Shown here: piece after piece, positions 4,140 through 63,110 of the stretch | Layout of the letters: each line of letters starts with the position of its first letter | Position numbering within the stretch: position 1 is the first letter of the stretch | Origin: Siphonodentalium dalli | Lineage: Eukaryota > Mollusca > Scaphopoda > Gadilida > Siphonodentaliidae | Assembly: GCA_032622095.1 (NCBI GenBank) | Contig: CP136065.1 | Span: 35,994,732-36,058,731 of the forward strand | DNA: 64,000 nucleotides | Reading direction: 5' to 3' | Program-made: the position numbers and the translations under genes | The notes under the pieces: model-generated | Told to the model about the DNA's origin: nothing | Seen by the model: the letters and a program-made list of their open reading frames with translations, nothing else | Databases searched by the model: none

Positions 4140-4650
4140 CTAGTTTAATATATATTTTGGACATTTGTCTGTCTGTTTGTCTGTTAGCTATGGTCGGGAA
4201 AACTGCCGGACAGATTTGACGAAATTTGATACCTAGGGGTAATTATTTCCAGGGAGTATTTTGGACGGGTCAAATCTTGATCCCGACCTGACTTTGACAT
4301 TCAAAAAGATCAATTCAAGGTCAAATCTGGTAAAACGGAAGTATTTCAACGAAATTTGATACCTACTGTTACTTTTGTCCCAGGAGTGTTTCGGGTGGGT
4401 CAAATCATGACCATGACCTGATCTTGACATTCAAAATTGTCAATTCAAGGTCAAATCGGGTATAAAGCCGGGCGGATTTCGACGGGTACTTTTGTCGTGA
4501 CTTTTGTCCGGGGAGTGTTTTGGACGGGTCAAATCGTGACCCCGACATGACCTTCACCTTTAAAATAGTCAATTCAAGGTTAAATCGCGCATTTCTCCGA
4601 AAATCAGAGGGGAACATCCCGGACGAAGTGGGGTCCACGAGCTACTATTA
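4140..4650. repeat. ~130-bp tandem repeat cluster (mobile family, copy 1)
   Basis: About three and a half units contain TTTTGTCC, GGGAGTGTTTTGGACGGGTC and TCAATTCAAGGTCAAAT. The first unit is preceded by a GTCTGTCTGTTTGTCTGT tract. The same leader and the same ~130-bp units occur at 23280-23690, so leader plus array move together. This resembles the core-repeat-plus-microsatellite layout of pearl/HINE (Helitron-related) elements of bivalves. The Helitron link is an inference, because no convincing 3' hairpin plus CTAG end was resolved. Confidence 0.75.
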
Positions 4651-6090
4651 TATATTTCTTGATTTAGTTACAAACTAAATACCTGTATATTGTACAAAGA
4701 AATGTTTGACAAATATATCTGTATCAATATTACCATACGGGTCATTAAAATAGATACGACGAAACAAATTTTGAAGGGTGCATGTATCAGGTAAATATTT
4801 ATATTTCAAATGATGACAGGAATGCAGAAAGTTGGAGTACCTACGTAATACTGGCTATCCGCATGAAGAGATATACATGTATATAAAAACCAGATGAGGG
4901 ATATGTCTGTACAGTTGCTAAACAATTCAGTCATGCAAAAGAGGATCAAAGAGTAAGATACCAAATTGCTGCCTGTGGTAATGTTTTTTAACGAAATTCG
5001 GGAAAATTAGATTACTCTCACCCTGGTTATCCAGAAGATAATTGTGGAATCTGATGACGATCGGACAAGGGGTGTCGTCTGTAGGATCAACCAAATTATT
5101 TAGCCATAAAAATAGTAAAATTGAAGATCACCGCTGGCAGTGATGTCTTCACAAGGACAGTTTGAGAACAAAATATGGCTCACATCTAGCGGTGACCCAA
5201 AATATCCACATAAGAAAAAGTTCTCCAATAAAAGCTGACTGCAGGGTGCGCCAATTGATTCAAATTCGAAATTTAGCAGGGTGTACTGCTTGTGGCCATG
5301 TTTTCCCCGCAAATTTGATAGACTGATGGACAAAACCACTGAATCCGTTGAATCAATATACATGTATACATGGATTAATTTATATGCATTGTTATACACA
5401 GTACTGGTATATAAAGGTACTGAAAATAACTATATTACTAGTATACACAAAATAAACCATATATCATGGCTATGGGTTCTAATATCCGAACATGACAGCT
5501 GAGAACTTGGTGTGAATTAAAGAGTGGTGGTTTCTCAAGCATATCTAACCCTCCACGTTAGGCACATGCCATTAAATGTCATAAGTATAATCTAGCTTGA
5601 GGACAGAAGTGATCCATAAAACCCCCCTTAATTCAACCAGGTCCTCGCGCGATGTATGATCGATCACATGATGATCTAGGGGGATTAGAATTGATGTATA
5701 AAAACAGCACTGCATGTAAATATAAAATAAAATAGTGCTACATCTTATGACAGATTATTGCCATATATAATCAGTGATTATACAGACAGTCTGACAAAAT
5801 AAAGTTTCAGTGACACTCTATCCGAAGAGGGGAATAATTTCATCTGTTACAGTCAATGGAGCAATTATGAATCTGGAAAGGTGAAATTTCTAAGTAATAC
5901 TAGATATCGACATGACGCGATAAAATATAACGTAAATGCAATATGGCCGCTGGCGACCATTTTTTCCTATGAAATTAAAAAAATATTTGATAGCTCTCAT
6001 CTGATAGATGAATATCAAGATAAATATGAAGTTTGGTGATGATCGGATGAGTGAAGTGGACTGTGGTCTGTGCTAAACGGTTTAGTAATG
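4651..6090. other. Unassigned AT-rich stretch
   Basis: No coding region is recognised. TATA-like strings occur near 4878 (GTATATAAAAACC) and 5697, but no supported gene follows either one. Short frames at 5100-5500 on opposite strands lack domain signals. Confidence 0.4.
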
Positions 6091-6400
6091 CTTAAAAAGA
6101 TTCTTACCTTAATATTTTTATGTTCACTTTATAAACTTCACTGAGTCATCTTTGTCATGTATTGAGTTTGATATCTTTTGTTAACAGTTTATAAATCATG
6201 TATGTCTCATGTTTGTTATTTTAATTTATGTGTTTATTATCATTAAATAAAGTTGCATTCCTTAAAAAGATTCTTACCTCAATGTTTTTATGTTCACTTT
6301 ATAAACTCCACTGAGTCATCTTTGTCATGTATTGAATTTGATATCTTTTGTTAACAGTTTATAAATTATGTATGTCTCGTGTTCGTTATTATATTATATA
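6091..6400. repeat. ~170-bp direct duplication, two copies
   Basis: AAAAAGATTCTTACCT begins each copy (about 6094 and 6264). It is followed by near-identical sequence through GTTAACAGTTTATAAAT and ATGTATGTCTC. Confidence 0.88.
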
Positions 6401-8109
6401 CACTTTATAGTGTGTTTTCAGAACGAAAACAAATTGAATAAAATCAACAAATTTGTAAATTTAAAAACAATTCAAACGTTGTTGTATTCCATGTCCCAGA
6501 CCGGACATATACACCAAATTTCAATAATATTCATTGAGAAACAACGGACCAAACGCTATATAACACCCGTATACATCTTTTATTCCGTATCGGACTCGGG
6601 TACATGTTATAGTAGGTACCGAATTGACACACGTCGACTGGGCGAGTTGGCCCTGGTGCGATTAGGCCGATTCCGGCACATTCTAGAATTTACCGTATGT
6701 ATCCGTTTACGCGTAGTTTACTTTAGAAAGTTCCGCAATTAATACCGTAAATAGAGCGACCATATTTGACAGAGAATGCCTCTGTTATTGATTATCAAGT
6801 TGCTGTACATTAAAAACGACAAATTCACATGCTCGTTCAAGCGCAGTAGTCTATTTTCCCCATGTTAAAGGACATCCACAAATACTAAATAACGCTAACC
6901 TACTGCCGAATGTTTGACACGACAACTGTTAACATATTTGGGCTGAATTCATCTGACGCGGTATTATTCCTCAAAATAAACAACAAAACCATCGTTACTT
7001 GGAAATGTAGTTTGGGCTAACATTTACATAAATCCTCCAGATCAATTATCCGACACACACGTCAGATGAAAAAGTCACATGAAGTAACCGGCCAAATTGG
7101 CCGAAATAAAAACAGAATAGTGAGTTATTTATGAAAATATCATTAGATTCCGACGATTGATGTGCTTTATGCACGTATAACTTCGCGTAATTGTATAAGC
7201 AAAACTATTCAATGATAGTTATCCATCAGATATATGCTGTACACTATGTGGTAATCAATTAAACAAAGGTATGTGGTAATTTTTGTTCTCAGGCGATGGA
7301 TCAATATGAACAGAGCATGTGTTGCATTTTCGATGTTCTGCGTTGAGTGATAAGCATTACGATGCCTTGTATGAACGGGATTCCAGACTGGGCATTTTGT
7401 TGAACCGTGTAGTGCATACAGATGCACATATGCATGCTATAGAGCCAGAACATGTCACCACGTTGTCAATTTGAAACAAAAAATAAGCCCAAGGTTTCAC
7501 ATAAGCGGGCTGATGTTATACATCATGCTCAGTCAAGTAACGTTTGACACAAACAGGCTAAAGCAATTAATTGGCCAAACTAGCACAAAATTCTTGCGGT
7601 CATCGCTTAATGGGATTATGTTTCGTCTATGGAAAGAGGATCATAAGCCAATGTTAAAGATTTATTCTTTCAACCTGCAATGCAAATACAATGTATGAGA
7701 ATATTGAATTGTATGAAAAAAGTGATTACAGTCCATATACATACATGTAGTCCATAATCACGTTACTAGAAACAATATATTCCTTCTATATGGTAAAATA
7801 AATGGAATTTAAAGACATCGCATCATTATTATTAAAAAAATATTTCAAATGGGAAGGTCAAGTCTTTATATATACACGATGTTTAAGCGTGAAAGCTAGT
7901 AAGTTACCCACACATGTGAAAAGAAAAACGCTCACTGTGAACATGCATGGTGCAACACACAGTTTTATATGTATGCAAACGGTGATCGACTCAAACCCTT
8001 GACAAGAAAAAGTAATAAATTGCAATTTTGAACGGTCTAGTTCGGGCAAGATTGTCTTCGACTGTGGGACACCAAAATAAACGAAGCTTGCCTTATAACT
8101 TATAACTCC
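6401..8109. other. Unassigned spacer upstream of the minus-strand cyclase-like gene's 3' end
   Basis: Several short frames exist (the longest is 6368-6742 plus), with no recognisable domain and low-complexity composition. A possible minus-strand AATAAA lies near 7661, too far away to assign with confidence to the gene ending at 8110. Confidence 0.4.
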
Positions 8110-20036: not shown

Positions 20037-21047
20037 TTACAGGTCTTCAGTCCTATTACCGATTTTGACTCCTTCCATTGCTCTTTTACACCCTCCATTA
20101 ATATTTCTCCTCTCGATGGCGATGGTGCCTTTTGTGGTCGATTTTGTAAAGAAGGGAACACAGTTGATATATCCTTGAATCCAATTTAGACGATATACAC
20201 TTGATTGAATCAATTTGTTGTTACACAAGGAGTTCTTTGCATGTTTACCAGCTAAATTTCCACGCGAATCCGTTTGATGTAGAGCTACCAATGTCCTTGT
20301 AGCATCGATGACCTTCACACTGTTTCGCCTTGCGTGCAAAATAAAATAATTATCGAATCCTATTCGTCCAATTGAGACATTAAGAAATTTATCGAACGGA
20401 TAAGAACTATCAACGAAGAAATAATCCTCTGCGAAACCTGGAAAAATTTGTCCTTTTTTGTGAATTCGCATAACGTTTTCGGGAGAGTTGGCGAATTGTT
20501 CGAAATGCGAGCCATTGATTGTGCTTTCAAAGTTGAAGTTAGTTCGTCTGCCACTGATAAGTATCTTCGTTTGATTGACGACCTTGAGAGACCGAATACT
20601 CTTTAGTGTGTGTAGCAATCCTTCGTCAAACAATATGTCCGAGTTAGCGAAACCGAAAAACGTTGCATTGAATCGAGAAAACATATCCAGGAACATATTT
20701 TTAAGAACAGGCAAATCTGGGCAGGGCCCACTTCCGGTGATTCGTGACGTCATCCAGCCATATTTAACCGCGAGTTTTTCCAAGAGCGTTTCATTGGTGA
20801 ATAACACCGGCTGTATAGACGGTAACAAGTATCGCCAATTCATCAATGTGTTGATTTTAAGTTCGCTCAGATTCACGTTGTGCTTCCATGTTGTGAAAAT
20901 TACGGCGATCAGATCGGAGCCTTGCCCCCGTCGTGGGTAGGTTGTTGTATCTCGTAGGTAATTTGTTCGGCCACCGAATAGCACTGCAGCTGCAAATATC
21001 GTAACAATGATGACATAAAGCGTTAGGTATATCAATCGTCGTCTCAT
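20037..21047 (-). CDS. Type II membrane glycosyltransferase-like protein, copy 1 (336 aa, intronless)
   Basis: A short cytoplasmic tail (MRRR) precedes one membrane-spanning helix at residues 5-24, followed by a long lumenal domain with several N-glycosylation sequons (for example N86, N127, N158). This is the usual topology of Golgi glycosyltransferases. The lumenal part has an FGFANSDILFDEG block (131-143) that looks like a nucleotide-sugar/metal binding DxD region, GRRTNF (166-171), AEDYFF (206-211), GRIGFDNYF (227-235) and VIDATRTLVALHQTD (246-260). I recognise this combination from uncharacterised invertebrate proteins predicted to be GT-A-like transferases; the sugar and acceptor are unknown. 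The start at 21047 is the first Met before the membrane helix, and it overlaps the stop of a short upstream frame. Relative to the second copy it lacks 17 residues after RDT (residue 33). Confidence 0.72.
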   Translation of the reverse strand: MRRRLIYLTLYVIIVTIFAAAVLFGGRTNYLRDTTTYPRRGQGSDLIAVIFTTWKHNVNLSELKINTLMNWRYLLPSIQPVLFTNETLLEKLAVKYGWMTSRITGSGPCPDLPVLKNMFLDMFSRFNATFFGFANSDILFDEGLLHTLKSIRSLKVVNQTKILISGRRTNFNFESTINGSHFEQFANSPENVMRIHKKGQIFPGFAEDYFFVDSSYPFDKFLNVSIGRIGFDNYFILHARRNSVKVIDATRTLVALHQTDSRGNLAGKHAKNSLCNNKLIQSSVYRLNWIQGYINCVPFFTKSTTKGTIAIERRNINGGCKRAMEGVKIGNRTEDL

Positions 21048-21048
21048 C

Positions 21049-21385
21049 TCCTTTCGCTGCCTCGCATTTTTATCTCCTTTAACTGCCTCGCATTTTTATC
21101 TCCTTTAACTGCCTCGCATTTTTATCTCCTTTAACCGCCTCGCATTGTTATCTCCTTTGTCTGACCCGCGTTGTTATCTCCTTTGTCTGCCCCGCGTTGT
21201 TATCTCCTTTCTCTGCCTCGCGTTGTTATCTTCTTGGTCTGCCCCGCGTTGTTATCTCCTTGGTCTGCCCGCGTTGTTATCTCCTTTGTCTGCCCCGCGT
21301 TGTTATCTCCTTTGTCTGCCCGCGTTGTTATCTCCTTTAACTGCTTGGCATTTTTGTCTCATTTAGCTGCCTCGCATTTTTACCT
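21049..21385. repeat. 26-bp minisatellite abutting the start codon, copy 1
   Basis: About 13 units of TCTCCTTT(AAC/GTC)TGCC(T/C)CGC(A/G)TT(T/G)TTA run up to the start codon. On the transcribed strand several units read AAAAATGCGAGGCAG, each with a short upstream frame (ATG CGA GGC AGT TAA). The frame in the unit next to the gene ends in TGA overlapping the main ATG (ATGA). Units farther away carry ACG in place of ATG. Confidence 0.92.
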
Positions 21386-24560: not shown

Positions 24561-25690
24561 GTCCGAATCTCTCGTCCAATTCGGAATATGCAATAACAAA
24601 TTTTGAGCTGTGTACTTATAAAAAAAAAAAAAAAACCTTGGTTTATTCATCCTGGTGTATAGTGTGTCCATTTTTATGACCAACTTCACTCATGGAATGC
24701 GCATACCTTAATAGACTACTTTCGTTAAGAATTTTTTTTTTTTCGAAACATATGCCCCTACCCCAATGTATAAATATATGACCGACCCTGTCCAGTTTTT
24801 GTTTTCGCAATGAACTGACAACTACCAAGAGGACTGCGAAAACCGAATTCGGTTATCTACAATGATACAAAAGAACAGCTGAGTACAACCAATTTGAGGT
24901 TTGCCTATTTATGGGCGGTAACTCCTCAGGAAAAGCTCGGACACAAGTTTTGATGCCGTTGGTCTGTAGGGCATATCGAGTTGTGCATACGGTCCAATTT
25001 TCGATGCTCTGCTCCTTATAATTTCCGAGATAATACACTGACATGTTTTCGTATAAAGGGAGATAACTCTGCGAAGAAAGCGCGGACAATATTCGCCATG
25101 CGTCTAAGGCACAGAACTCATTAACCCCAACATAAGTACCAACTTTCGGTTCGATACTCCCCATATGTTCAGATATTAAGGCGTTGCAAAAGTGTCGAGT
25201 ATAATAATAATAATAATAATAGTGAAAAATATTTTTATTTTTTTATTTCATTCCGTGGCGAAGCGCTCTGGCGACATCGCGATACCTTCATTTTCAGTAT
25301 CCCTTAGATGCCTACGTTCCCTAGATATTTCACGGTCCTCCTCCAATTAGTTTCTGAGTATTTTCAATAAAACGGAAAACGGCCCCAATAGAAAAACAAT
25401 ATACTTCCTTGGTTACACCATGGAAGTATAATAATGACCAGTTTTATATAGCGATTAACCAATTACTTGCTCTAACACGCTTGGTACAATATTACTCCGA
25501 TACTCAGTATGACAACCTGACTGGTACTCTTTTAACGCATGAGTGATGCGAAGTCGACACAGTACGAGCGACCTTGCTCAAGGGTCCCAACTTGGCGCGT
25601 GTTTTGAAACAGCGTGCAATCCGACAATTGCATGCACGTCGCTCAAAGCGGCCAAGCCACTGCTATGTGGCTAATGATATTTTTCGAGCG
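24561..25690. other. Spacer left of the long-inverted-repeat transposon
   Basis: Contains an A tract near 24620 and an (ATA)n run at 25200-25222. A 103-aa minus frame at 24853-25164 has no recognisable domain. Because the transposon's true left end is unresolved, the last ~100 bp could still belong to it. Confidence 0.4.
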
Positions 25691-25711
25691 TCGGTCGCCA
25701 AACCCCGAAAT

Positions 25712-26184
25712 TCACGGATGCGTGTTTTGGCGTATAAAGTTTTTTTCTCTGCGGATTTTGTTAATTCAGGCATCCGACATCAATATTTTTATCGGCTGGC
25801 CATCTGTCAGCCGTGAGCAATTTTTTTTATAGCGACCTAAAAAGTATACCCCTCCCCAATTTGTTCCCACAGTTACTTGGAATTTGTTGCAAATTCACAT
25901 GACTAATCTAGTAAAATGTATACAAATGTATATATTTTCATGAAGCTAAGCCATAATGACACTATTTCGGGCCAAAATTGAAACTCACCATCCAAGATGG
26001 CTACCAAAATGGCCACCGGAAGTTAAAATATGACATTTTTTCACAAATATCTTCTAGATCAGTTCATGCTGTTTGGAACTGGTTGAGTAATATGACTTTA
26101 TTTTGTATTCTGTATATTAACTGATCATTGGATCAATTAAATATGCAATTATTGGGGTCCTACCCGCTTGTGATCCCTCAAAAA
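25712..26184 (+). repeat. Left terminal inverted repeat of the PIN/CXC element
   Basis: Runs from TCACGGATGCG to TGATCCCTCAAAA. It matches the reverse complement of 31737-32219 over its whole length, with roughly nine in ten bases conserved by eye. It contains CCAAGATGG and AAAATGGCC words near 25991-26015. Confidence 0.9.
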
Positions 26185-26721
26185 TTCGATTTTACAGAAC
26201 GCGGTATAAAATTTCACAAAAAATCACAACTCGGATTCTAGACATATTTCAACAAGAAATGAACAGAAGGTTGCAATTAAGTAAGGCATACCATTACCTA
26301 TTAATATTCCAACTCACTGGAACCCAAATTCTTACTTTGGCTCAAAATGGCCGCCAAAATATGGAAAATAGTAAACATTGCCCTAGGGTGTCTTGCAATC
26401 GCTCACAAGTTGCGGTTGATGTAAAAAAAATGACTATCATGATTTCTATACATTGAATACTAACAATCTTTAATTTCAAGTACCAACGACAATAATTGAA
26501 TCCAAAATGGCAGTCAAAATGTTGACAAAATGGGCGGAAAAAGTCGTTTGATATCATACTTAACACATCACTCAAACAGGAACTAAATTTTGACCGAAAT
26601 ATGTAGCATTAGATTGATGTCTTTCGTTTGCCGAAAATAAGTAGTACTGCAGTATTGCTACAAATTGCAGGCAGAGTTGTAGAAGAAATGTACATGAACA
26701 AGTAGCCCAATTACTGAAACC
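26185..26721. other. 3' non-coding part of the PIN/CXC element
   Basis: Lies between the left inverted repeat and the CXC frame. It holds further AAAATGGC-type words (CAAAATGGCCGCC near 26342, CCAAAATGGCAG near 26503, AAAATGGGCGG near 26527). No frame is supported. Confidence 0.5.
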
Positions 26722-26970
26722 CTATACTGAACTACGTGTTGTGTCTGTATCTGCTTCGTTCAACTGAGCTGCTCTGCCATCTGTCCCCGAATGCGTCTGT
26801 TCATTACAACACTCAATTGTTGCATTACAAGCACAAAATATTGTGCATGCCAATCGAGAAGATCTACACCCGCACCTGTTAGTTTTGCAAGGCTGTGTTC
26901 TCGAACAGGAACACCGAACCAAGCGCAAAACCGTTTCGGGGGCAACCAGTACACCAGTTGGAAGAGTCAC
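26722..26970 (-). CDS. C-terminal tesmin/TSO1-like CXC domain of the element's megaprotein (fragment)
   Basis: The frame contains a dense Cys cluster, CSCSRTQPCKTNRCGC followed by CTIFCAC and CC (residues about 21-58). This is the pattern of the tesmin/TSO1-like CXC (CRC) DNA-binding domain, which coordinates zinc. The segment before it (SPVTLPTGVLVAPETVLRLV) is in frame with sequence reaching back towards 27030 apart from one TAA. It is therefore the tail of the same protein as 26993-28777, separated by a C-tract frameshift and a stop. The apparent Met start at 26970 is internal. In the parent protein the domain probably binds the element's own ends, which is inference. Confidence 0.75.
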   Translation of the reverse strand: MTLPTGVLVAPETVLRLVRCSCSRTQPCKTNRCGCRSSRLACTIFCACNATIECCNEQTHSGTDGRAAQLNEADTDTTRSSV

Positions 26971-26992
26971 GGGTGATAAACATTTTTAAATT

Positions 26993-28777
26993 TCATCCTT
27001 GATAAAACCAAAATGTGTAGCATCCAATTGTGGGGGGGGGGATGAGGTCTAAAGCGTGTTTCCAAATGCACACTTGGAAATGTGCGCGTTTGATGTTCTC
27101 TGTGAATGCTTCGGTGGTTGGAGATAGGCTACACAGACTAGGAACTGTGGTAGCGCCCTTCTTCCATATCTTCGATGTCCAAACACTAATTCGCGCTTCA
27201 GACATGGTGTTTTTGTCTTTGCAACCGTAGCATGAACACATGGATTGAGTAGCTTGGTTGAGTACCTCAGACCACGGGGCATTAACGTCACCAACGGAGG
27301 CTAGTGAGTTTTCACCGAATTTTAATACTTTTAACGTGCGACCTTTGCCAATTCCAAAACAGCATCCAACTGTGTCGCATCCAGAGATGCCATGAGCCGC
27401 AAGCAAGTCTGGGATAATACCTCTATGCTTATCAACAGTTGCTGCGATATCAACAACCGATTTTCCTTTTATGGGAGATTCCATGAAGATATTGCATGAC
27501 ACATTTTGGTCCAGATAGTAATGCAGAAGCAACGCGTATACACCAGTGTCATCTGCAAGAACTATGACATTGGCATGGTCAGGTGCAGTCTGAAGAGCTT
27601 GTTGTACAATAATGTTATCAGCTTCTTCGTGCTCATTTGCCATGTCATGCCTGTCAATAACGACACCCTTGTTTATTTCAAATGGAACAGCATTTTGGCC
27701 AGTTACAAACAACGCATGTTGCCAGGTGTTGTCAACAGCGAACTGTTTGTCACATCTAAATTCATTCACAATAATGTCAATCAACTGTTTGTTATTTTCA
27801 GTTACAGTCAGGACCAATTTCTGAGATGGTAGTGAGGACTTTGCAGTCAACGTAAATTTCCTGCAACAAGCCTCGCCACTTCTCTTAGCTCTAGTGGTAC
27901 ACTTAGTACTGAAGTCTTTGTACCTGTCAAATACAAGGAATGTGTCTCCAGATATGAGTCTCTGCTTCACTTGTTGCTGAAATTTCTTAACATAATATTT
28001 TACTGTTGGGGGACAGAATTTGCTGGGAGCAGGCCAATGTGGTATCCACAGTAGCGCACAACCATCTATTATTATGCAAGATGACGCATTTCTCTTTGAC
28101 GTCTTCACAGATGAAATCATAACTGCAGTTTGTGATTTCAGATCGGACTTAGATTTTGATATTCGCATATCACCGTTCTCATTGAAAAGAGTTGTCGGAA
28201 TTGGGGACAATTCATATGATAGTATGTCATTTATTCTAACGTCTCTAGAGCTAGCTTGAAGTCCCATTACCCGTGAGTAAATAAGATTGCTGTCAAAGGT
28301 TTTGTTGTCACCCAACTTGACTGACTTTTTCATAACTGCCATTGTTTCAACGAGCATTGATATCTTATCATAAAACCCACTCGGGAGTTTGTTCACAAAA
28401 TCATTCAATGTTTGCCGGCCAAGTGATAAGGTCATGTCCAAATTTACATTTTTGGTAGTATTCTGACCACTGACTACGTTTACTATTGCATCAGGGTGTT
28501 GTGTGGGGTATAGTGGGTGTATGACCGTTGCGAGTTTGTTCCTGATACCCTCACGATCTGCGTGATCAGCAGCAATTCGCGCCTTCATCTCCTCTTTGTG
28601 TTCAAGCAATGCCTGCGCCGTGACATCGGACTCTCTCCACTGAGCGACACCATTGATAAGTTGGCCGCAGCTATGGAGGCTTAAAGCCCACACTTTCAAG
28701 GTTTCTGGTTTCAATGTAATGCCTATAATGCCTGACTTACCATGGCCGTGACGCATGCATGTGGTTTCAATAAACAT
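26993..28777 (-). CDS. Middle part of the megaprotein with FEN/XPG-like PIN nuclease signature (594 aa)
   Basis: Acidic motifs appear in the order of a FEN1/XPG-type PIN domain: IIIDGCALLW (D238), LVFDRY (D284) followed by a basic TRAKRSGEA stretch, HEEAD (E384, E385, D387), LADDTGVY (D409, D410), GCDT (D468) and GIGKGRTLKVL (475-485), the last resembling the helix-hairpin-helix after the final acid. All expected acids are present. The N-terminal region (HGKSGIIGITLKPETLKVWA, residues 12-31) belongs to a large uncharacterised family recurrent in invertebrate genomes. The frame ends abnormally: a run of C near 27030-27040 shifts the frame into a premature stop, while the original frame continues into the CXC domain. 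The Met at 28777 is probably internal, with the true protein continuing upstream into 28723-31209. Confidence 0.72.
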   Translation of the reverse strand: MFIETTCMRHGHGKSGIIGITLKPETLKVWALSLHSCGQLINGVAQWRESDVTAQALLEHKEEMKARIAADHADREGIRNKLATVIHPLYPTQHPDAIVNVVSGQNTTKNVNLDMTLSLGRQTLNDFVNKLPSGFYDKISMLVETMAVMKKSVKLGDNKTFDSNLIYSRVMGLQASSRDVRINDILSYELSPIPTTLFNENGDMRISKSKSDLKSQTAVMISSVKTSKRNASSCIIIDGCALLWIPHWPAPSKFCPPTVKYYVKKFQQQVKQRLISGDTFLVFDRYKDFSTKCTTRAKRSGEACCRKFTLTAKSSLPSQKLVLTVTENNKQLIDIIVNEFRCDKQFAVDNTWQHALFVTGQNAVPFEINKGVVIDRHDMANEHEEADNIIVQQALQTAPDHANVIVLADDTGVYALLLHYYLDQNVSCNIFMESPIKGKSVVDIAATVDKHRGIIPDLLAAHGISGCDTVGCCFGIGKGRTLKVLKFGENSLASVGDVNAPWSEVLNQATQSMCSCYGCKDKNTMSEARISVWTSKIWKKGATTVPSLCSLSPTTEAFTENIKRAHFQVCIWKHALDLIPPPTIGCYTFWFYQG

Positions 28778-31209
28778 ATCGCTCTATATGCCGTCCCAAA
28801 CCCATCAACGTGCCTCATTACACGAGACCCTTTCAAAAAGTGTTGTAGAACTTCTGATGGTACTCTTTGCATCTCTCTCAAGTAGTATACGCCGTACCTA
28901 GCATAGTTCACGTGACCCGATGCAAAGAAATATGGCAACATTTGTTTCACCGCTACCAAGTGTAATGGCCAGTCGCCTTCACGCTCAGCTCCAATGTACA
29001 TCATCATGATAAAAACGGGCCTTATAAAGCAGTCCACACATGCCTTGCAAGTCTTGCTGCGTTCAGACAAGTCCTCTAATATCTCATTCAAATCTTCAGG
29101 ACAGACAACGTTCTCCCGAGCTAAGATGTCTCTCAGCAACTCTTCGGCCAACAATCGGAATGCACGTACGTTCATGGGAAACTTCTTGCCAGTCATCATC
29201 TTAGATACACCACCGAATACTGACTCAAGAATTTCTGATAACCCTGTATTGTCCATCAATGTGCCGACAGCACCGACGAAGCTCATAAGCATATGCATGC
29301 CTCCTAACCGGGGTATGATGGTTTTCAATTTATCCGGATCAGACCAAAGAACATTCAATGCCACTGTATACAGCTGTTGATCAGCTGTGAATAGCGTGAA
29401 CTTCTGCCCAGTCAACTTAGTTAGACGTAGTGCTTCTAACATGGCGGTGAAAATTGTTTCCGGATCAGCCGGGGGCATATCAATCAATGGTAGATATACC
29501 GCCTTCGTCGCCGGTTGTGGTGACTGGCCACTCTGGCGAGATAATCTGGTATTGTAACCGTTAAACTCCGGACAGTCAGCATGTTTTATGACGTCTTTCA
29601 GAAACCCAAAATCACTTTCCAATGCCCTTCGCTCTGCAATAGCCATGCGTGCCAAGACCTTGAGCTGAGGTACGTCATTTCGAATACATTGAGCGGGAAT
29701 GTCGGGCTTTTTAGATCCGTCAAACGTGGACGCTTCAACATTGTAATCAATGGGTTTAGACATATCATGCTTACTAACTCTCGGTATCATTGGGGGGATA
29801 GGTTCCGCTTTCGTGTTAGGCTGTGTCATCAAGACCGCCAATGAGTGTGTACTGAGCTTGCCATTCTGGGAAGATATATCAGCTTCAAAGTTATCGACTA
29901 CGAACTGTATCAACCCATCTTCCGAACTGGTGACTGTAGTTAGATTGTTACTCTTAGAGGCCAATACCGCTGCCGATTTTTTAAACCGCAACAGCTCATC
30001 GTATGTGCAAATGACACCGAAGTCATGCATTGATTTGACCAACTCCTTGGAATCGCGAAGCATTACTGCTAAACTTAATTGCAACGGTGTAGGCACCCCT
30101 TTGATTGCAGAAGTAATCATGTTACCTATCATCAGCGCCGGGAGAGTATTGTCAAGTTTTGGCGACAGGCGGCCAAGAAAGTCTAAGACAGTTTGACTTG
30201 TATACTCGAAAAGTTTATTTTTATCTAACCTGGGCTCATAATTGTTTCCATCGATTTCAATGTCTTCGACCTCCTTAGAAACTGCTGTTCGCAGAGTTTT
30301 CATGGCTGCGGGGACATCATCATCAATATCACTGACAATCCTCACGAGAGAACCTACTCGAGATCGCATTGCAACTATTGTCGCGATTGATGGTGAACTA
30401 AGAAGCAGAAATTCTTCGCCAAATAGCTCTGTTAATTTGGAGACAAGTAGTCTCCGTGACAAAAATCTTCCGCCATGTTGAACATACTTCTCATATAACT
30501 CAACAGAGCTCCAACTAAGAGAACTATTGCTTCTCATTAAATCTACCACAGCTTGAAGAGGCGGTTCGATATCAGGTAGTGCCATGGATATTGTGGCATA
30601 TTTTGTGGCTGCTTGTAACGCTCGTTCTCCCATGAATGACTGACGGCAATCGGAGTGATATCGAGCGTCTGCTGCGTGTAAGTCTCTTACGGCTCGACTT
30701 ATTCGGACCCGGACTTCGTCGGACCATTTGTCAGCACGTTCGTCGCACTTGCTGAGAATATCCTCTTTTGGAGTCATACCACCATGTGTAAGTTGGGTTT
30801 GTCGGAAGATGTATGCAGGCCTCCACCTAGAAGGATTTTTCTTATCTTTTTCCACTTTACATTTTAGCCCCCAAAACACACAATCTTTCATGATGCTACC
30901 GACGTATGAACGCCTGGTCATTTTCTTAGGTGCTGCGTTGTCAGGTTGTTCCACATTGGAACCGCGCTTTTGTTTGGCTTTTGCCACTGTTTTCGGGTGT
31001 ATGTACTTATCTATACACTCCCTATGAGCATCAAGTGAAGTATTGTTGTCGGCCTCGAATTTTGGGCGCAAATCAAGGTGAAGTCCGTCACCATATATCT
31101 CGCTGCTGGTAATGACCTTTTGAATTCTTGTGGCCAAAACCTTAACAAAGCGATTCCCGCTCGAATCAGAGCACTCATAAATATCTGCAAAGTAGCACCT
31201 CTGCGACAT
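28723..31209 (-). CDS. N-terminal part of the megaprotein, uncharacterised (828 aa)
   Basis: The Met at 31209 is the first after an in-frame TGA. Residues 59-190 contain Cys/His pairs (HREC 62-65, C110-C117, C155, ARYHSDC 182-188) that could form one or two zinc-binding modules; the ARYHxxC pattern recurs in this uncharacterised animal family. The C-terminal half has family-like blocks FTADQQLY (607-614), IPRLGGMHMLMSFVGAVGTL (632-651) and NYARYGVYYL (768-777). No DDE, tyrosine or HUH transposase can be named, although conserved acids at D439, D577 and D610 are candidates. The frame ends after a one-base loss near residue 803. In the frame of the next ORF the sequence then passes a TAG and continues as SDMFIETT, so both ORFs were one gene. 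Confidence 0.68.
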   Translation of the reverse strand: MSQRCYFADIYECSDSSGNRFVKVLATRIQKVITSSEIYGDGLHLDLRPKFEADNNTSLDAHRECIDKYIHPKTVAKAKQKRGSNVEQPDNAAPKKMTRRSYVGSIMKDCVFWGLKCKVEKDKKNPSRWRPAYIFRQTQLTHGGMTPKEDILSKCDERADKWSDEVRVRISRAVRDLHAADARYHSDCRQSFMGERALQAATKYATISMALPDIEPPLQAVVDLMRSNSSLSWSSVELYEKYVQHGGRFLSRRLLVSKLTELFGEEFLLLSSPSIATIVAMRSRVGSLVRIVSDIDDDVPAAMKTLRTAVSKEVEDIEIDGNNYEPRLDKNKLFEYTSQTVLDFLGRLSPKLDNTLPALMIGNMITSAIKGVPTPLQLSLAVMLRDSKELVKSMHDFGVICTYDELLRFKKSAAVLASKSNNLTTVTSSEDGLIQFVVDNFEADISSQNGKLSTHSLAVLMTQPNTKAEPIPPMIPRVSKHDMSKPIDYNVEASTFDGSKKPDIPAQCIRNDVPQLKVLARMAIAERRALESDFGFLKDVIKHADCPEFNGYNTRLSRQSGQSPQPATKAVYLPLIDMPPADPETIFTAMLEALRLTKLTGQKFTLFTADQQLYTVALNVLWSDPDKLKTIIPRLGGMHMLMSFVGAVGTLMDNTGLSEILESVFGGVSKMMTGKKFPMNVRAFRLLAEELLRDILARENVVCPEDLNEILEDLSERSKTCKACVDCFIRPVFIMMMYIGAEREGDWPLHLVAVKQMLPYFFASGHVNYARYGVYYLREMQRVPSEVLQHFLKGSRVMRHVDGFGTAYRAICLLKPHACVTAMVSQAL

Positions 31210-31736
31210 ATCCAGAAAAGTTCCAGAAAAGCCTCAAGGAACAAAACTGAGGAACTTCACTCAGCGAATATCTTAAAACACGAAACAAGTTACTAAATCA
31301 ACAATAAGGCAAGAATGAGTCAAATCAAACTAAACGTGAATACACAATTGGTTTTCAAATATACTCTGCTACTCGCCGCCAGAATACTGATTAAAAACTT
31401 TGAATATCGATTACAAGTAAAAGCACGTGCTCGCCTGTTGAGTGATCAAATGCCACTGAACTGACTGTAATGACAGTTCGGAGCATGCAGTTAATAAAGA
31501 GCGTTCTTTTTAATCTGACTAAAATAGCTATACACATTAACGCTCTTTATTGTCAGATTTCAGGACGGTATGATGTCGAGTTCTAAAATCTAGAGTATAA
31601 TAGTGAATACTATAAGTGTATTAATGATAATATACCTTAATATTTCCATGTTAGTCATGTGAATTTGCAACAAATTCTAAGTAACTGTGAATTTACGTCT
31701 GGGAACAAATTGGGGGGGGGGGGTATACTTTTATAT
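31210..31736. other. 5' non-coding part of the PIN/CXC element
   Basis: Probably holds the promoter. A short inverted pair, TTAATAAAGAGCGTT (31491-31505) and AACGCTCTTTATT (31539-31551), could form a hairpin. 31656-31736 is a partial duplicate of the outer right-repeat segment at 32010-32095, including a poly-G tract (31712-31723). Confidence 0.5.
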
Positions 31737-32219
31737 ATTTTGAGGGATCACACACGGATAGGACCCCAATAATTGCACATTTAATTGCTCAAATGATCAG
31801 TTAATATACAAAATACAAAATAAAGTCATATTACTCAACCAGTTCAAAACAGCATGAACTGATCTAGAAGATATTTGTGAAAAAATGTCATATTTTCAAC
31901 TTCCGGCGGCCATTGTTGGTGGCCATCTTGGATGGTGAGTTTCAATTTTGGCCCAAAATAGTGTCATTATGACTTAGCTTCATGAAAATATATACATTTT
32001 ACCAGATTAGGTATGTGAATTTGCAACAAATTCCAAGTAACTGGTTTCACGTCTGGGAAAAAAATGGGGGGGGGGGGGGGGTATACTTTTTAGGGCGCTA
32101 TAAAAAAAATTGCTCAAGGCTGACAGATGGCCAGCCGATAAAATCTTGATGTCGGATACCTGAATTTACAAAATCCGCAGATAAAAAAAAACTTTATACG
32201 CCAAAAGACGCATCCGTGA
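31737..32219 (-). repeat. Right terminal inverted repeat of the PIN/CXC element
   Basis: Reverse complement of 25712-26184, ending CCGTGA at 32219. It has a 16-base G run at 32066-32081 where the left copy has the mixed CCCCTCCCC. Confidence 0.9.
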
Positions 32220-32236
32220 CCTGGCGGCCGGACCGA

Positions 32237-32410: not shown

Positions 32411-34198
32411 ACAAACCATTGGATGAGCCAATTTGGAAATCCAATGTTTTAAAATTCAATCTCATTCTCAAAAGCTTGCTGGACCAGGACGTTTTAAAGA
32501 AAAAACATGTTCAGTATCTAATTGCAAAACCTGAATCCAATAATAGGACATTTTATTTGCTTCCTAAAATACATAAACCTTTGAGCTGTTGGACTAATCC
32601 ATACACACCTCCCGGCCCCCGATCATCTCTGACGTCGGCTCGGAGTCCTACCACATTTCGGAGTTTATTGATTTCTATTTTAAACCAATTGCTACCCGCC
32701 ATCCGAGCTATCTAAAAGACACGGAGGACTTCCTCATTAAATTGTCGAAAATTGAAGTCCCATCTTCTGCTTACCTAATTAGTCTCGACGAGGAATCTAT
32801 GTATACAAATATTGGAATCGATGCCGGATTAAAGTCAATTAAGAATGCATTTGATTTTCACCATGATCCTCATCGACCTGGAGATGAAATACTTCAATTA
32901 TTAGAACTGTCCCTTAAAGGGAATGACTTTGAATTTAATGGACGATATTATTTACAGGTATCCGGCTGTAGTATGGGCAAGAAGTTTAGTCCTAATTTTG
33001 CCTCAATTTTTGTTGCAGAGTGGGAGAAAGGCGCCCTAGCCAAATGTCATAAACAACCATTAGCCTATTATAGATTCTTGGACGAAATATTTATCATTTG
33101 GACTCATGGTCTGGGTGAGTTTAGGGTGTTCTTGGACATCTTGAACAGTCATGACGAATCAATCAAACTCAAAGAATCAATATCGCAAACCAGCATTGAT
33201 TTCCTTGATTTAACAATATTTAAGGGCCCACAATTTACATCATGCAACATTTTAGATACAAAACTTTTTACGAAACCAACGGATTCTCACCAGCTACTTC
33301 ATCGTAAATCTTTCCATCGCCAAAACTTTTCAATGGATTGATTAAATCTCAAATCATTCGATATCACCGGAACTGCACGAACAGAAGCGACCTAAATCAA
33401 GCTTGTTCGGTGCTTTTCCAGGCTTTACGACCGCGCGGCTACCCTAGTAGACTACTGCGCCAAGTAAAGTCCGAAACTATCAGAGAATTGGAATCGTTAC
33501 GCCATGACCCAACATCGACTGAACCAACAAGGATACGGCACAATCGGCCGGTGTTGGGTAATGGTTCAGCCTCATTTTGTCACAAAAAACGATGTTACAT
33601 CAATACAATGGGATATCTCAATACTAGTAACACTTTCACCAGCGAACAAACACGCATATCGTATCAAATGCATAGCGAACTTAATTGTGATTCTAAAAAT
33701 GTAATTTACTTAAGCACATGCAAAAGATGCCGTACACAATATGTTGGACAAACAAAAACCTCTCTCAAAGTTAGAATGTCTAATCATCTTTCCAGTGTTC
33801 GCAAAAAACTCGACATGCAAATTTCCGATCATTTCAACTCATCTAATCATGACATTAAATCCCATTTCAGCTTTCAGCCAATAGAACAGACACCAATTCT
33901 AGCCGACGAAGACCAAACCGATTCAATACGCCTAGAGCGCGAAAATCATTGGATGGGCGTACTTAAAACATATCTTCCGTTCGGACTTAACATTGACTAC
34001 AAAGGTGTTTCTCGAAATTTCTTGTGCTTTCCTCTGATCTACAATCGTAGAAATGTGGAAATCGCAAACATTTTCAGAAAAAACTTTGCATTATTAAACA
34101 CTAAATTGACCGAGCCTCTCGACAAACGGGTGATTATTGCCTACAAGAAAAATCCCAGTTTGAGAGATATGTTAGTTCGATCAAGACTCAGACCTTGA
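32411..34198 (+). pseudogene. Penelope-like element: RT plus GIY-YIG endonuclease, frame-broken
   Basis: The order is reverse transcriptase then endonuclease, as in Penelope-like retroelements. RT motifs: FYLLPKIHKP (near 32550), then after a frameshift at the C-rich 32615 region ISDVGSESYHISEFIDFYF, LISLDEESMYTNI (near 32785), GCSMGKKFSPNFAS (near 32965) and RFLDEIFIIW (near 33072). The catalytic pair, normally DD, reads DE. A second frameshift at about 33330 leads into 33338-34198, which holds a Cys pair (C81, C86), the VIYL...YVGQT GIY-YIG signature (122-139), R146, H150 and a candidate catalytic Glu in RLERENHW (198-205). The N-terminus is missing where the frame meets the (TA)n of the preceding module. 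At least two frameshifts make it inactive. Confidence 0.88.
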
Positions 34199-38533: not shown

Positions 38534-40312
38534 TTATATGGGTCTGTCTGTTGCGTCTAGTTGTAGGATGGACTTTGTCTTTTTCGTGGTGAGTAGTTGA
38601 TTTCTAACTTGTAGTTCTAGGAGGAGTGGGCTGTTGTCTAGTCGGGATAGTGTCATGTTTCTGAGATCCATCAGTCTTTGCTTGATTGTAGGTATGTTCG
38701 CTGCGTCGTGGAGGGCGTTGATCGGTGTCCATGGTGGTTGGCGGAGCGCGATGCGGAGTGCATGGTTTTGGACTTTCTGTAGTTTTTCAATGTATGTCTT
38801 TGGGGCTGCTGTGAGGACGGCAGCACCGTACTCCATGACTGGTCGGACGTAGATTTGGTAGAGGTTGATGAGGGTTTGGATGTTGGTTCCCCAGTCTGTT
38901 CCCAGGAGGCATCGTAGTAGATTTGTTCTTTTTCGGGCTTTGTCGGCTATCTTGTTGATGTGAGGGATGAAGGTCATTTGCTGGTCTAGTGTTATTCCTA
39001 GTAGGATCGCTTGGTTGGATGGTTGGATTGTCTCGTTGTCTATCTTGATGTTGATGGATTGTGTTGTTTTTCTTCTGTGGAATATGATGAGTTGGGTCTT
39101 TTTGGCGTTGAGTTTAATTCTCCATTTTGAGCACCATGTTGATAGGTCGTCGAGTGTCTTTTGTAGTCTTTTCTGTAGGATTCGGGGGTTTGTATGAGTC
39201 GTCCAGAGTCCTAGGTCGTCGGCGAACTGTGATATTTCAACGTTGTTTCTCTTGTCTATGGGTAGGTCGTTGGCGTAGATTAAGAAGAGGAGTGGGCTTA
39301 GTACAGATCCTTGTGGTGTTCCGGCGCGTAGGTGGACTGGGTTTGATGTTTCGTTGTTGATGCGGACGCTGAGTTGACGGTCTTGAAGGAATGAAGAGAT
39401 GAGGCGTGTGTATTTTCTTGCAAGGTTGAGGTGGCTGATCTTGTATCGGAGGCCGTCGTGCCATACTGAGTCGAAGGCTTTTTCTACGTCTAGGAAGACT
39501 GCGCCTGTTGTCCAGTTTTTTCCTAGGGATAGTCGGACGTCTTCTGCTATTCTGATGATGTGTTCTATGCCCTCTTTTCCTTGTCGGTAACCGCGCTGCC
39601 ATGGATTGAAAAAGTTGGAGGAATCTAGGTGGTCTCGGAGTCTGCTGCTGATTATTCTCTCGAAGAGTTTTCCCGTACATTGGAGGAGGCTGATGGGTCG
39701 GTAGTTGCTGGGGATGGATCGGTCTTTGTCTGGCTTTGGGATCATTACTCCTACTGCTGTTTTCCATGCTGTTGGGAAGTATCCAATGGTTAGGCATGCG
39801 TTGAAGAGTAACAGTAGTCTGGCGAAGAAGGCTGGTGGAGCTTGTCGAAGTATTGTGTATGTGATGCTGTCGTTGCCTGGAGCTGAATTGTTTTTTCCCT
39901 TCTTTAGATTGGATATTATCTCTTCGTGTGTGATGGGTGATGCAATGGGAAAGACTTCATCCGGGTCGCTGTCGGTGTTGTTTAGTGGTTGGAAGAGGTC
40001 TGGATTGTCTTTGATATGGTTTTCAACGGTCGTTTTGAAGTTGTCGTCGTATGCTGTGCCTTGGTGGGTGTTGTGGATCATTTTTAGATTTTCAGCGAAG
40101 GTCTCTGCTTTTTCGTTGTCTCCTGAGGTAAGGTTTCCGTCTGATTTTTTTAGGGGTTTTTCTGTTTTGTTGTTGGTTATTCCGGTGCCGGTTAGGGTTT
40201 TGAATGATTTCCAGAAGTTTTTGTTCATTTTCATGTTGCCGAGTTCTGTTGTTGCTCGCTGCCAGGATTCAGATTTTTCTTTTTTCACTGCTGCTTTGAC
40301 TTGTTTGTTCAT
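38534..40312 (-). CDS. Jockey-type ORF2, reverse transcriptase part
   Basis: RT motifs in order: IPKPDKDRSIPSNYRPISLL (191-210), QRGYRQGKEGIEHI (239-252), FLDVEKAFDSVWHDGL (273-288), GTPQGSVLSPLLFLIYANDL (331-350) and FADDLGLWTT (363-372). The catalytic Asp residues are intact. The C-terminus continues through the thumb and connection region and ends without an RNase H domain. The Met at 40312 is internal: the same frame extends upstream (NPGDPHYKHLYNS) towards the endonuclease, so the true protein is one ORF2 broken near 40385. Confidence 0.9.
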   Translation of the reverse strand: MNKQVKAAVKKEKSESWQRATTELGNMKMNKNFWKSFKTLTGTGITNNKTEKPLKKSDGNLTSGDNEKAETFAENLKMIHNTHQGTAYDDNFKTTVENHIKDNPDLFQPLNNTDSDPDEVFPIASPITHEEIISNLKKGKNNSAPGNDSITYTILRQAPPAFFARLLLLFNACLTIGYFPTAWKTAVGVMIPKPDKDRSIPSNYRPISLLQCTGKLFERIISSRLRDHLDSSNFFNPWQRGYRQGKEGIEHIIRIAEDVRLSLGKNWTTGAVFLDVEKAFDSVWHDGLRYKISHLNLARKYTRLISSFLQDRQLSVRINNETSNPVHLRAGTPQGSVLSPLLFLIYANDLPIDKRNNVEISQFADDLGLWTTHTNPRILQKRLQKTLDDLSTWCSKWRIKLNAKKTQLIIFHRRKTTQSINIKIDNETIQPSNQAILLGITLDQQMTFIPHINKIADKARKRTNLLRCLLGTDWGTNIQTLINLYQIYVRPVMEYGAAVLTAAPKTYIEKLQKVQNHALRIALRQPPWTPINALHDAANIPTIKQRLMDLRNMTLSRLDNSPLLLELQVRNQLLTTKKTKSILQLDATDRPI

Positions 40313-41390
40313 TGAGTTGTAGAGATGTTTGTAGTGGGGGTCTCCTGGATTTTTCTGCTGGAGTCTTCGTAGTTTTCGGGCATGCTATGTCTAGGGCGGA
40401 GTCTATGGTTTTTGAGAGCTGTTGGCATGTAGTGTCGATGTTGGTTGTTGTCGTGATGGATGGGATGTCTATGTTGTCGGTGATGTGTTGTCGGAAGAGG
40501 TCCCAGTTGGCTTTTTTGAGGTTGCGGCGCATAGTTTTCTGGTGGCGATCTACGCTGGCGTTGCTGATCTTGATGTGGAGGGGTAGATGGTCGCTGGAGA
40601 TGTCGTCTCCTACTTGGCACTGGAATCCTTTTGTGGTGATGGATGGGGTGGCGATGGCTAGGTCGAGGATGTCCCATGTGTTGGTTGGAGCGTGGCAATG
40701 TGTTGGTTCATCTTCGTGGTTCAATATGATTAGATCTAAGTCTTCGATGATGTCAAACATTCGGTCACCGTTAGTGTTCGTCAGGTTGCAGCCGTAGATG
40801 GTGTGTTTCGCGTTGTAATCTCCGATGAAAATGCATTGTCGATGTGTAGATGTGTAGCGGTTGAAGGAGGATCTGTTGAGTTCTGTGGATGGTGGGTTGT
40901 ATGTAGCTACAATGGCAGTCTTGATGCCACGTATGGTTATCTCAACTGCCAGGGTCTCTTCGTCTATGTCTTCTGTGTTCAGCATGGCGTGTTTCAGGTC
41001 TTTGTGTATGAGTAATGCAACACCTCCCCCCTGGGAGTTCCGGTCTCGGCGCGCGATTTTGTAATTAGTGAAGGTGATCCGGCTATTGTCGTCGAGCTTG
41101 GTCTCATTAATGGCGATTATATCTGGTTGATGGTCGGTGATGTATTCTTGTAAGATTTGGCGCTTGTGTGTTAAACCGTTGATGTTTATGTGGAGCAGGT
41201 GCAACAGGCAATCAGGCGATTTCCTGTTGTTCTTTGAGTGAGTCGTGTCAGCCATTGTAGGTGTGACAGTTGAGTCTTGTTTTGGCGTTAGTGTTGTTTT
41301 AGCGTCTGAATGTGAATTGCTGTATGGCTTCCGCGCTGAGTTGGGTTCTGTAAAAGGTGTTGACGGCTTCGCTGACGTGTTGGCTGACAC
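40269..41390 (-). CDS. Jockey-type ORF2, endonuclease part (frame-broken)
   Basis: This is the endonuclease/exonuclease/phosphatase fold of LINE ORF2, which nicks target DNA for primed reverse transcription. Catalytic motifs are all visible: N71 (HININGL), E96 (NETKL), GGGVALL (121-127), D191 and N193 (GDYNAKH), D243 (LDLAI) and SDH (266-268). The likely start is M46 (about 41255), just after the ORF1 stop; the upstream Met at 41390 would overlap ORF1. The frame goes wrong after the ACP segment near 40385 and ends at 40269. The RT frame begins one base out of phase, consistent with a small deletion. Confidence 0.87.
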   Translation of the reverse strand: MSANTSAKPSTPFTEPNSARKPYSNSHSDAKTTLTPKQDSTVTPTMADTTHSKNNRKSPDCLLHLLHININGLTHKRQILQEYITDHQPDIIAINETKLDDNSRITFTNYKIARRDRNSQGGGVALLIHKDLKHAMLNTEDIDEETLAVEITIRGIKTAIVATYNPPSTELNRSSFNRYTSTHRQCIFIGDYNAKHTIYGCNLTNTNGDRMFDIIEDLDLIILNHEDEPTHCHAPTNTWDILDLAIATPSITTKGFQCQVGDDISSDHLPLHIKISNASVDRHQKTMRRNLKKANWDLFRQHITDNIDIPSITTTTNIDTTCQQLSKTIDSALDIACPKTTKTPAEKSRRPPLQTSLQLNEQTSQSSSEKRKI

Positions 41391-43017
41391 TTCTGTTTGT
41401 ATCTTGTTTGTTTTTGTCTGGTTCTGTCAGGACTTTGACTATTGATGCTGTTAATACCGCGGCGAGCTTGAGTGTGTCTGTGATTTCTGCGGGCTTGCTT
41501 GTGGCTGCTGCGTATGTCAGTTTCTTAGTTTCTTTTGTTGTGACTTCTTGTTTGTATATTCTGCATCCTTTGTAGGCTGAGTGATGGTCGTTGTCGCAAT
41601 TGGCACATCTTCTTATGTTAGCGGTGCAGTCTTGATGTTTATGGTTTCCCGCGCAGTTCTTGCATACGATGCTGTTGTTTTTACAAAATTCTGCCGTGTG
41701 GTTGAATTTCTGACATTTGTAACACTGGGTCACGTGGGGATGCTCTCGGAATTCTGTGACTTTGTATCTGTTGATGTTGGATCCTAGACGGACTCCCTTC
41801 ATCAGTTGTTGCTTTGATTCGTTGTCCGGGCATGTTACTTTTACCTTCCAGGTAGGTTGGTCGGTGTGTGCGCTTTTGAATCGTTGGATCTGGAATTTGC
41901 TCCCGATGTCCCGCTGTATCTCATCCTCTGTTATTGTGGGGGGAACCCCACTGATAACAGCCCGGTGAGTTACTTGGTGCGATCGGTTGCTCCCGTGAGT
42001 GAGCCGGAATGTTGTGTTGGTCTGTTTGAAGATCGGTAATTCTTTGGCTTTGGTTAGGAGGTAGTGTTTAGTTTCTTCGTTTTGTGGGTATATCAGGATG
42101 GTTCCGGCTTTGGTTGTTGATATTCTTATTGGGTATTTGGTTGTGATGGCGCCTTGGAGGAAATACGGGCTTTGCTTCATTTCTTCCGTCATGTTTTCAG
42201 CTATGAGGGTGTCTCGTCTTTTCTGGTTGTTGTGGTTGGCTGGCTTGGTCGTTTGGGTGGTATGATGACTGTTGTGACTGGCTGGATTGTTCGGTTGCTT
42301 GGAGGGCAGGTTGTCGATCTCTGCTGCATCTTCTTTTCGTTTTTTATGTGGTGTATTTAGTGGGCTGATCATTTCAGGCATGTCGTGTGCTTGTCGTTGG
42401 CGTTTCTTATTTCTGGAGTAGAACATGGCGAAGTCGGAGTCAGAAATGTCTTGGTCGGTTGAGGTTTGGATGTCAGTTTCGTTAGTCATGTGTATGTCTT
42501 TAATTTCGGCCGGTTTAGTTGTAGCAGTAGTGGTATTCTGAGATGAAGTGGAGGTTGATTCGCCGGTCGTGGGATTTTTTGTTGTCTTGGGTGTTTCGGC
42601 ATGTTTCGGCGTCTGTGGCATATCGGAGGTCGTGGCTTTTTCAGTTGTCTTTTGTTTATCAGAGGTCGTGTGCTTGTCTGTTGTCTTTGGTTTGTCAGAT
42701 GGCTTTTGCTTGTCGGATGTCTTTGGCTTGTCGGAGGTTTTTGGCTTGTCGTTCGTCTTTGGCTTTTCGGTCGTCGATGGTTTTGGAGTTGTGTCTTTTT
42801 TCTTTTCTTTTTTGTTCGTCATCGTTATGTTAAGGTTTTTGATGTTTTCAGATAGGTTGTTGATCGTGTGACGATTTTCTTTAATTTCTCCATTCAAGTT
42901 GTCGATCCGCTTTTTCAGGTCTGCGTTCTCTGATTTTAGGAAGGCTACCACGTCAAAGCCGGCGCCCTGAGAAGGGCACTGCGACTCTGACAAAGCATTT
43001 TTGGTAAGTTGTTCCAT
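41299..43017 (-). CDS. Jockey-type ORF1 protein (572 aa), RNA-binding gag-like
   Basis: Residues 25-66 form a predicted coiled coil, likely for multimerisation. Residues 78-160 are a low-complexity K/P/T/S/D stretch with repeated KPKTSD words. Residues 295-425 resemble the RRM-like module that precedes zinc knuckles in Jockey/I-type ORF1s. Three knuckles follow: C432-C445 (CYKCQKFNHTAEFC), C452-C464 and C471-C485. The protein would package LINE RNA for retrotransposition. The frame is complete and unbroken. The stop at 41299 lies about 43 nt before the likely ORF2 start. Confidence 0.88.
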   Translation of the reverse strand: MEQLTKNALSESQCPSQGAGFDVVAFLKSENADLKKRIDNLNGEIKENRHTINNLSENIKNLNITMTNKKEKKKDTTPKPSTTEKPKTNDKPKTSDKPKTSDKQKPSDKPKTTDKHTTSDKQKTTEKATTSDMPQTPKHAETPKTTKNPTTGESTSTSSQNTTTATTKPAEIKDIHMTNETDIQTSTDQDISDSDFAMFYSRNKKRQRQAHDMPEMISPLNTPHKKRKEDAAEIDNLPSKQPNNPASHNSHHTTQTTKPANHNNQKRRDTLIAENMTEEMKQSPYFLQGAITTKYPIRISTTKAGTILIYPQNEETKHYLLTKAKELPIFKQTNTTFRLTHGSNRSHQVTHRAVISGVPPTITEDEIQRDIGSKFQIQRFKSAHTDQPTWKVKVTCPDNESKQQLMKGVRLGSNINRYKVTEFREHPHVTQCYKCQKFNHTAEFCKNNSIVCKNCAGNHKHQDCTANIRRCANCDNDHHSAYKGCRIYKQEVTTKETKKLTYAAATSKPAEITDTLKLAAVLTASIVKVLTEPDKNKQDTNRSVSQHVSEAVNTFYRTQLSAEAIQQFTFRR

Positions 43018-43249
43018 AGTTTGGCAATTTATAAAGTTTATAAAGTTTACTCTTTAAAGTAATCAGGTTACTTGTGAAGAGTGCTGCTGACTCGATGAGA
43101 TGTTCCTGTGAGTGCTGCTGACTCGATGGACTTTAAATTCGCTCTTATAGATACTCTATACATGCATGACATTGTTCTGTTCTGAGGAGATATAACTCAA
43201 CATTAGCGGCGACTCTCTTGTGAAATCCTCCTCACCCTTAGCTATTCTG

Positions 43250-63109: not shown

Positions 63110-63110
63110 C

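Follow-up and report, generated by a model that had tools for sequence, protein, structure and literature searches.

A 64,000-nucleotide stretch of the genome of the scaphopod Siphonodentalium dalli (assembly GCA_032622095.1, contig CP136065.1, forward-strand positions 35,994,732 to 36,058,731; hereafter the window) contains a mobile DNA transposon, now a decayed copy, at positions 25690..32233 (minus strand) of the window. Its two inverted arms (25712-26184 and 31738-32219, ~475 bp each) are 88% identical over 493 columns, and comparison of arms and tips gives terminal inverted repeats at 25690..26184 (arm A, downstream of the gene) and 31738..32233 (arm B, upstream of the gene); parts of 31985-32077 recur in 31629-31723, adjoining arm B. 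The outer limits were read from the tips common to dispersed copies (GTCC...GGAC). The match with the window copy ends at 25692 and 32233 in two copies (L010 and L027) and at 25692 only in two others (L011 and L012), and matching of the tips across copies sets the ends of the window copy at 25690 (GTC...) and 32233 (...GGAC). Of the 16 elements read at both ends, 11 carry an extra TA beyond each GTCC, and 5'-TAGTCC is the end of related elements in the same 2.2-Gb genome; the window copy has GC (25688-25689) and CG (32234-32235) where relatives lead one to expect the TA tip.

The arms enclose one minus-strand gene of ~1,490 codons, split over three reading stretches and broken by at least two frame changes, at about 28.8 and 27.0 kb; unbroken relatives exist. 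The first reading stretch (28723..31233, minus strand; 836 codons stop to stop) covers N-terminal Cys/His clusters and most of a DUF6589-like central domain, with a final ~25 codons whose frame differs from that of the family. The second (26993..28783, minus strand; 596 codons) covers the end of the central domain and a PIN nuclease domain of FEN/XPG type. A third frame (26746..26979, minus strand), recognised by its cysteine motif, encodes a cysteine-rich C-terminal stretch that we take from this motif to be CXC/tesmin-like; Pfam and PDB searches gave no match to this part.

Dispersed copies, target duplications and empty sites

A search of the assembly (2.23 Gb in nine contigs, the window lying on contig C5) with the left arm gave 2,461 first-look candidates, of which 40 were scored. 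All 40, the window's own match included, were at least 92% identical and were spread over all nine contigs, so that the arm repeats are not due to chance; 39 covered the whole arm or fell at most two bases short of that, and one started at position 41. Among 20 fetched regions (L009-L028), tblastn detected segments of the gene in nine (L009-L013, L022, L024, L025 and L027, with L024 holding a remnant only) and none in the other 11. Of these gene-free regions, nine hold elements 4.4-5.4 kb long and L028 one that spans 7.8 kb; L026 was read at one end only. The gene-free elements have their ends in common with the gene carriers and long nested inverted repeats inside, and none of the 11 gene-poor elements inspected (L014-L021, L023, L024 and L028) had a frame of more than 167 codons. 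The same machinery appears to have spread these ~5-kb gene-less elements with common ends.

Not all copies represent separate events. The 10-kb region retrieved for L009 is, with its flanks, 98.2% alike throughout to the window copy and its surroundings, and L013, which lies immediately beyond the end of the window in an adjacent tandem duplicate, is a further such copy; because their flanks are shared by segmental duplication, these three are not independent insertions. L010 and L012 share a flank too, and of these five copies only the window and L010 belong to the 16-element set read at both ends. L010 and L012 (C5, 163.1 and 162.7 Mb) are also gene carriers with an internal stretch repeated, two times in L010 and four times in L012 (one of the four cut by the locus end), corresponding to window 27951-29499, from the end of the DUF6589-like domain to the PIN start. 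Nine gene copies (36 pairwise comparisons) have synonymous divergence (dS) of 0.003-0.043 and nonsynonymous to synonymous ratios (dN/dS) of 0.62-1.89, which indicates young copies that decayed largely without constraint after insertion and neither proves nor disproves function. Nine pattern matches on viral contigs included no relative.

A first-pass annotation of the window, made from the sequence alone, had drawn the element at 25691-32236, within 3 bases of the tips at both ends, as ~475-bp inverted repeats enclosing one minus-strand gene in three frames, a description that stands. It had also read the inverted ends as mobile-element termini with which the gene travels, as the dispersed copies with constant ends bear out, and had named a constant-length target duplication and empty sites as the check, both of which were found. 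The duplication was scored in the 16 elements with both ends read, with mispaired flanks as the control. An exact 3-bp flank match outside the TA is present in nine (L014, L016, L017, L018, L019, L021, L029, L030 and L036), compared with 6 of 240 mispaired controls, and a 4-bp duplication is present in 0 of the 16 at five offsets tried. Outside this set are the loci for which one end with its flank was found (L009, L011, L012, L013, L022, L025, L026, L028 and L031), L035, L039 (tips not resolved) and those fetched without ends (L034, L037, L038, L040, L041 and L048-L050). A duplication of GAG (CGAG by eye) around the window copy is not claimed, as it lies at a shifted offset and chance can give that.

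Empty sites were recovered for two insertions. L017 sits within a tandem array of ~68-bp units, and all 24 other units seen are uninterrupted (18 read CCCATAGG, four CCCATATG, one CCCATAGT and one CCCATAAT); set against these, the L017 junctions (CCCATA-TAGTCC...GGACTA-ATAGG) identify ATA as the duplication and TA as part of the element. L029, which carries the unbroken gene, is inserted in an abundant repeat, and 40 of 40 scored matches to its joined flanks (from 1,182 first-look candidates) extend over the junction. Twelve of these were read: ten are exactly CATATGTTTCC, with the target triplet once, two have one letter changed at that place, and in all twelve the TA tip and a second TAT are absent. 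The L029 duplication is therefore TAT, and the TA tip again part of the element. Four letters near the L029 site in the host copy, TGAA, are absent from the 12 empty sites, and we interpret them as variation particular to the repeat copy that hosts L029. A TA target duplication had seemed right from its presence in 11 of 16 elements but was ruled out by the L017 array and the L029 empty sites.

The encoded protein and its relatives

A six-frame search with the second reading stretch gave 82 matches, 37-100% identical (73 of 2,092 candidates scored). L029 has an unbroken frame of 1,458 codons and inverted repeats of 165 bp at 87% identity, the element running from 1103 to 6650 of its locus (5.55 kb); the L030 element is 6.2 kb. 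L036, which matches L029 at 92% over a piece of 755 columns and at 98% over one of 661, carries identical tips at a different site, and L039 has inverted repeats over 541 columns at 72%. L035, ~55% like the window in protein, retains the tip GTCCGGCAGCCAAA, then GCGTGTTTT.GCGTATAAAG; its other (B) end was not found. Divergence of the ends parallels that of the protein, a pattern to be expected of a protein that acts on those ends. Among the best candidates scored, 19 of the 30 merged places with paralogs at most 44% identical fall at 11-62 Mb of contig C3 (51 Mb, 2.3% of the genome), perhaps a low-recombination or sex-linked region.

The N-terminal Cys/His motifs recur by eye among the relatives. 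The centre of the L029 protein carries DNFD, TADQQLY and IETTFMRYG; in the window copy (all minus strand) the putative first catalytic D lies in DNFEADI (29875..29895), the putative second in TADQQLY (29368..29388) and the putative catalytic E in IETTC (28757..28771). The corresponding L029 residues, D428, D599 and E804, are conserved in 9 of 9, 12 of 13 and 12 of 12 of the rows that have a letter at the position (the D599 exception looks like a misaligned tail). These counts are weaker than they look, since the fragments that make up the rows are related and fall into about six groups. A protein from the same genome (C1:85732081) that scores above the DUF6589 (PF20231) cut-off aligns to L029 residues 595-864 (E = 2e-13, single target, composition correction off), which places the central domain among those of the DUF6589 kind, and matches the family profile (E = 1e-23, single target, filters off). 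Judged by these alignments, the central domain is homologous to DUF6589, and the DUF6589-type centre may be a DDE core interrupted by a long helical insertion. PF20231 has 90 matches in this genome, some within open frames of 1,380-1,541 codons, and no match in any of 14 control genomes.

The predicted structure of the L029 protein has a PIN fold of FEN1/XPG/Exo1 type, the first model being good over the PIN part only. From this model and the acidic motifs, the PIN nuclease domain of the window copy extends approximately over 27062..28075 (minus strand) and contains DGCA, VFDRY, HEEAD, ADDTG and GCDT, with G replacing the last D of ADDTD. A literature search that combined CXC with transposase and Cnidaria found nothing on the subject.

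Probable class and proposed mechanism

It is likely that the window element is a decayed cut-and-paste DNA transposon, best placed in the AcademX lineage of Academ, with a one-gene transposase that includes a flap nuclease. Terminal inverted repeats are a general trait of such transposons and are present in the window copy and its relatives; the AcademX nuclease is of XPG type, and here a nuclease with a predicted PIN fold is encoded together with the putative transposase. Excerpts of PMC10045372 give duplications of 9-10 bp for AcademH and 3-4 bp for AcademX, related to the encoded helicase and nuclease, and the exact 3-bp duplications and empty sites described above match the AcademX length. 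A flap nuclease, a transposase-like domain and a 3-bp duplication together fit AcademX, a probable label that follows published description and not sequence. The first-pass annotation had proposed an undescribed class with no named transposase; neither part is supported, as the centre shows homology to DUF6589 and a conserved D/D/E, and nuclease-carrying AcademX elements with 3-4 bp duplications are already published (PMC10045372, in excerpt). AcademH was rejected on the 3-bp length (not 9-10 bp) and on Pfam matches at E <= 1, which included no helicase. Kolobok, with a TTAA duplication (excerpt of PMC9587614), was rejected because a 4-bp duplication is present in 0 of 16 elements at the five offsets tried; accessory nucleases occur in several Kolobok lineages according to the same excerpt, so nuclease fusions are not strange among transposons. 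Excerpts of PMC10799480 and PMC5753468 added nothing on AcademX.

The ends, dispersed copies, duplication and empty sites are observed, the PIN fold comes from a model and the DUF6589 homology from alignments; catalysis, the order of cuts and the roles of the nuclease and the CXC-like part are inferred as follows. The one gene would encode a transposase of ~1,450-1,490 residues with an N-terminal Cys/His region, then a DUF6589-type DDE core, then a PIN nuclease of FEN1/XPG/Exo1 type and, at the C terminus, a CXC-like zinc cluster. This protein would bind the 5'-TAGTCC ends, and its D/D/E core would excise the element and join it to the target with a 3-base stagger, which host repair would fill to leave the 3-bp duplication. 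Any 5' flaps or strand ends that cleavage or joining leaves behind may be trimmed by the flap nuclease. If this reading holds, a class of uncharacterised animal proteins would gain a function as transposon enzymes, 'hypothetical protein' families with such members would prove inflated, Pfam DUF6589 would be linked to a transposon with defined ends, and the covalent union of flap nuclease and transposase would make the nuclease's strand-processing role directly testable.

Several observations weigh against this reading. AA or other letters replace the TA tip in several gene carriers near the window copy. An exact 3-bp duplication is lacking in 7 of the 16 elements (L015, L020, L010, L027, the window, L023 and L024), two letters of the triplet fitting in L015 and L020, and in L032/L033, read at both ends and outside the 16; among the gene carriers with both ends read (L029, L030, L036, L010, L027, the window and L032/L033) it is present in three of seven. 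The joined flanks of L030 gave no empty site (0 of 40 matches span the junction). The Pfam DUF6589 matches fall below the cut-off (window, E = 0.00036; L011, 8.5e-5; L030, 0.002), and L029 and L035 had no DUF6589 match in the Pfam search. A second structure model, of the D/D/E domain, has a mean predicted local distance difference test score (pLDDT) of 46.8 and 0 Foldseek matches in the PDB at E <= 0.001, and the best Foldseek match for the PIN domain has E = 0.0056. The comparison with AcademX is by published description.

The strongest alternative, rather unlikely in our estimate, is a superfamily of its own, in which the DUF6589 DDE transposase is distinct from Academ, elements with DUF6589, a flap nuclease and a CXC-like tail form a new lineage with the nuclease acting directly in transposition, and the AcademX resemblance is superficial. 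A single-protein architecture that ends in a CXC-like tail is absent from the Academ descriptions in excerpts of PMC10045372, PMC10799480, PMC9587614, PMC5753468 and PMC10294476, the literature searched makes no mention of DUF6589, and Academ itself entered the comparison through descriptions; however, a nuclease and a 3-4 bp duplication are published AcademX traits (PMC10045372, in excerpt), and the mean of 5,565 bp for bivalve Academ elements (PMC10294476, in excerpt) is close to the sizes of L029 and L030.

The PIN/CXC protein could instead be cargo, a passenger of ends moved by another element's transposase. The many gene-less copies with common ends, moved in trans, would suit this, as would the still putative nature of the DDE fold in the gene product; yet frames other than the gene are all 157 codons or shorter in the window element and in the L029 stretch, the ends diverge together with the protein, L035 keeping recognisable tip letters at ~55%, and the proposed D/D/E residues are conserved, which makes cargo improbable. 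A Tc1/mariner-like element, whose target duplication is TA, would account for the TA found beside GTCC at either end of 11 of the 16 elements, but is very improbable given empty sites without that TA and duplications of ATA and TAT at L017 and L029. A host gene enclosed by an inverted segmental duplication or a palindrome, with no transposon, is practically untenable as a reading: the window copy does sit in segmental duplications, but dispersed copies with common ends, 3-bp duplications and empty sites refute this for the family.

Elsewhere in the window, near-identical minus-strand stretches of 352 and 369 codons lie ~42 kb apart (20037-21095 and 62048-63157), each adjoining a 26-bp tandem repeat; this pair, and L013 just beyond the window end, point to a tandem segmental duplication of ~40 kb. 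A 392-codon minus-strand stretch at 8110-9288 matches Pfam Tocopherol_cycl (PF14249; E = 9.5e-11), and a tocopherol-cyclase-like gene is, to our knowledge, unusual for an animal genome. Near the transposon's right end, a broken plus-strand element with reverse transcriptase and GIY-YIG matches (32598-34198) is presumably Penelope-like. The minus-strand stretch at 38534-43053, with a reverse transcriptase match (RVT_1, E = 5.8e-38) and strong base skews at 38-44 kb, is probably a non-long-terminal-repeat retrotransposon.

Comparison with known systems

The central domain of the element protein is related by homology to Pfam PF20231, whereas the element family itself falls below the cut-off of that entry or is unmatched, and Pfam states no function for it. 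Unlike the FEN1/XPG/Exo1 nucleases, the PIN nuclease of the element is fused inside a transposon protein of ~1,460 residues. The CXC-like tail and the 5'-TAGTCC tip differ from AcademX as described, both being unmentioned in the Academ descriptions of the five excerpted papers listed above (PMC10045372, PMC10799480, PMC9587614, PMC5753468 and PMC10294476). Inverted repeats are common to the element and AcademX, as are the nuclease and the target duplication of 3 bp described for that lineage in excerpts of PMC10045372, and the lengths of L029 (5.55 kb) and L030 (6.2 kb) are near the mean of 100 curated bivalve Academ elements (PMC10294476, in excerpt).
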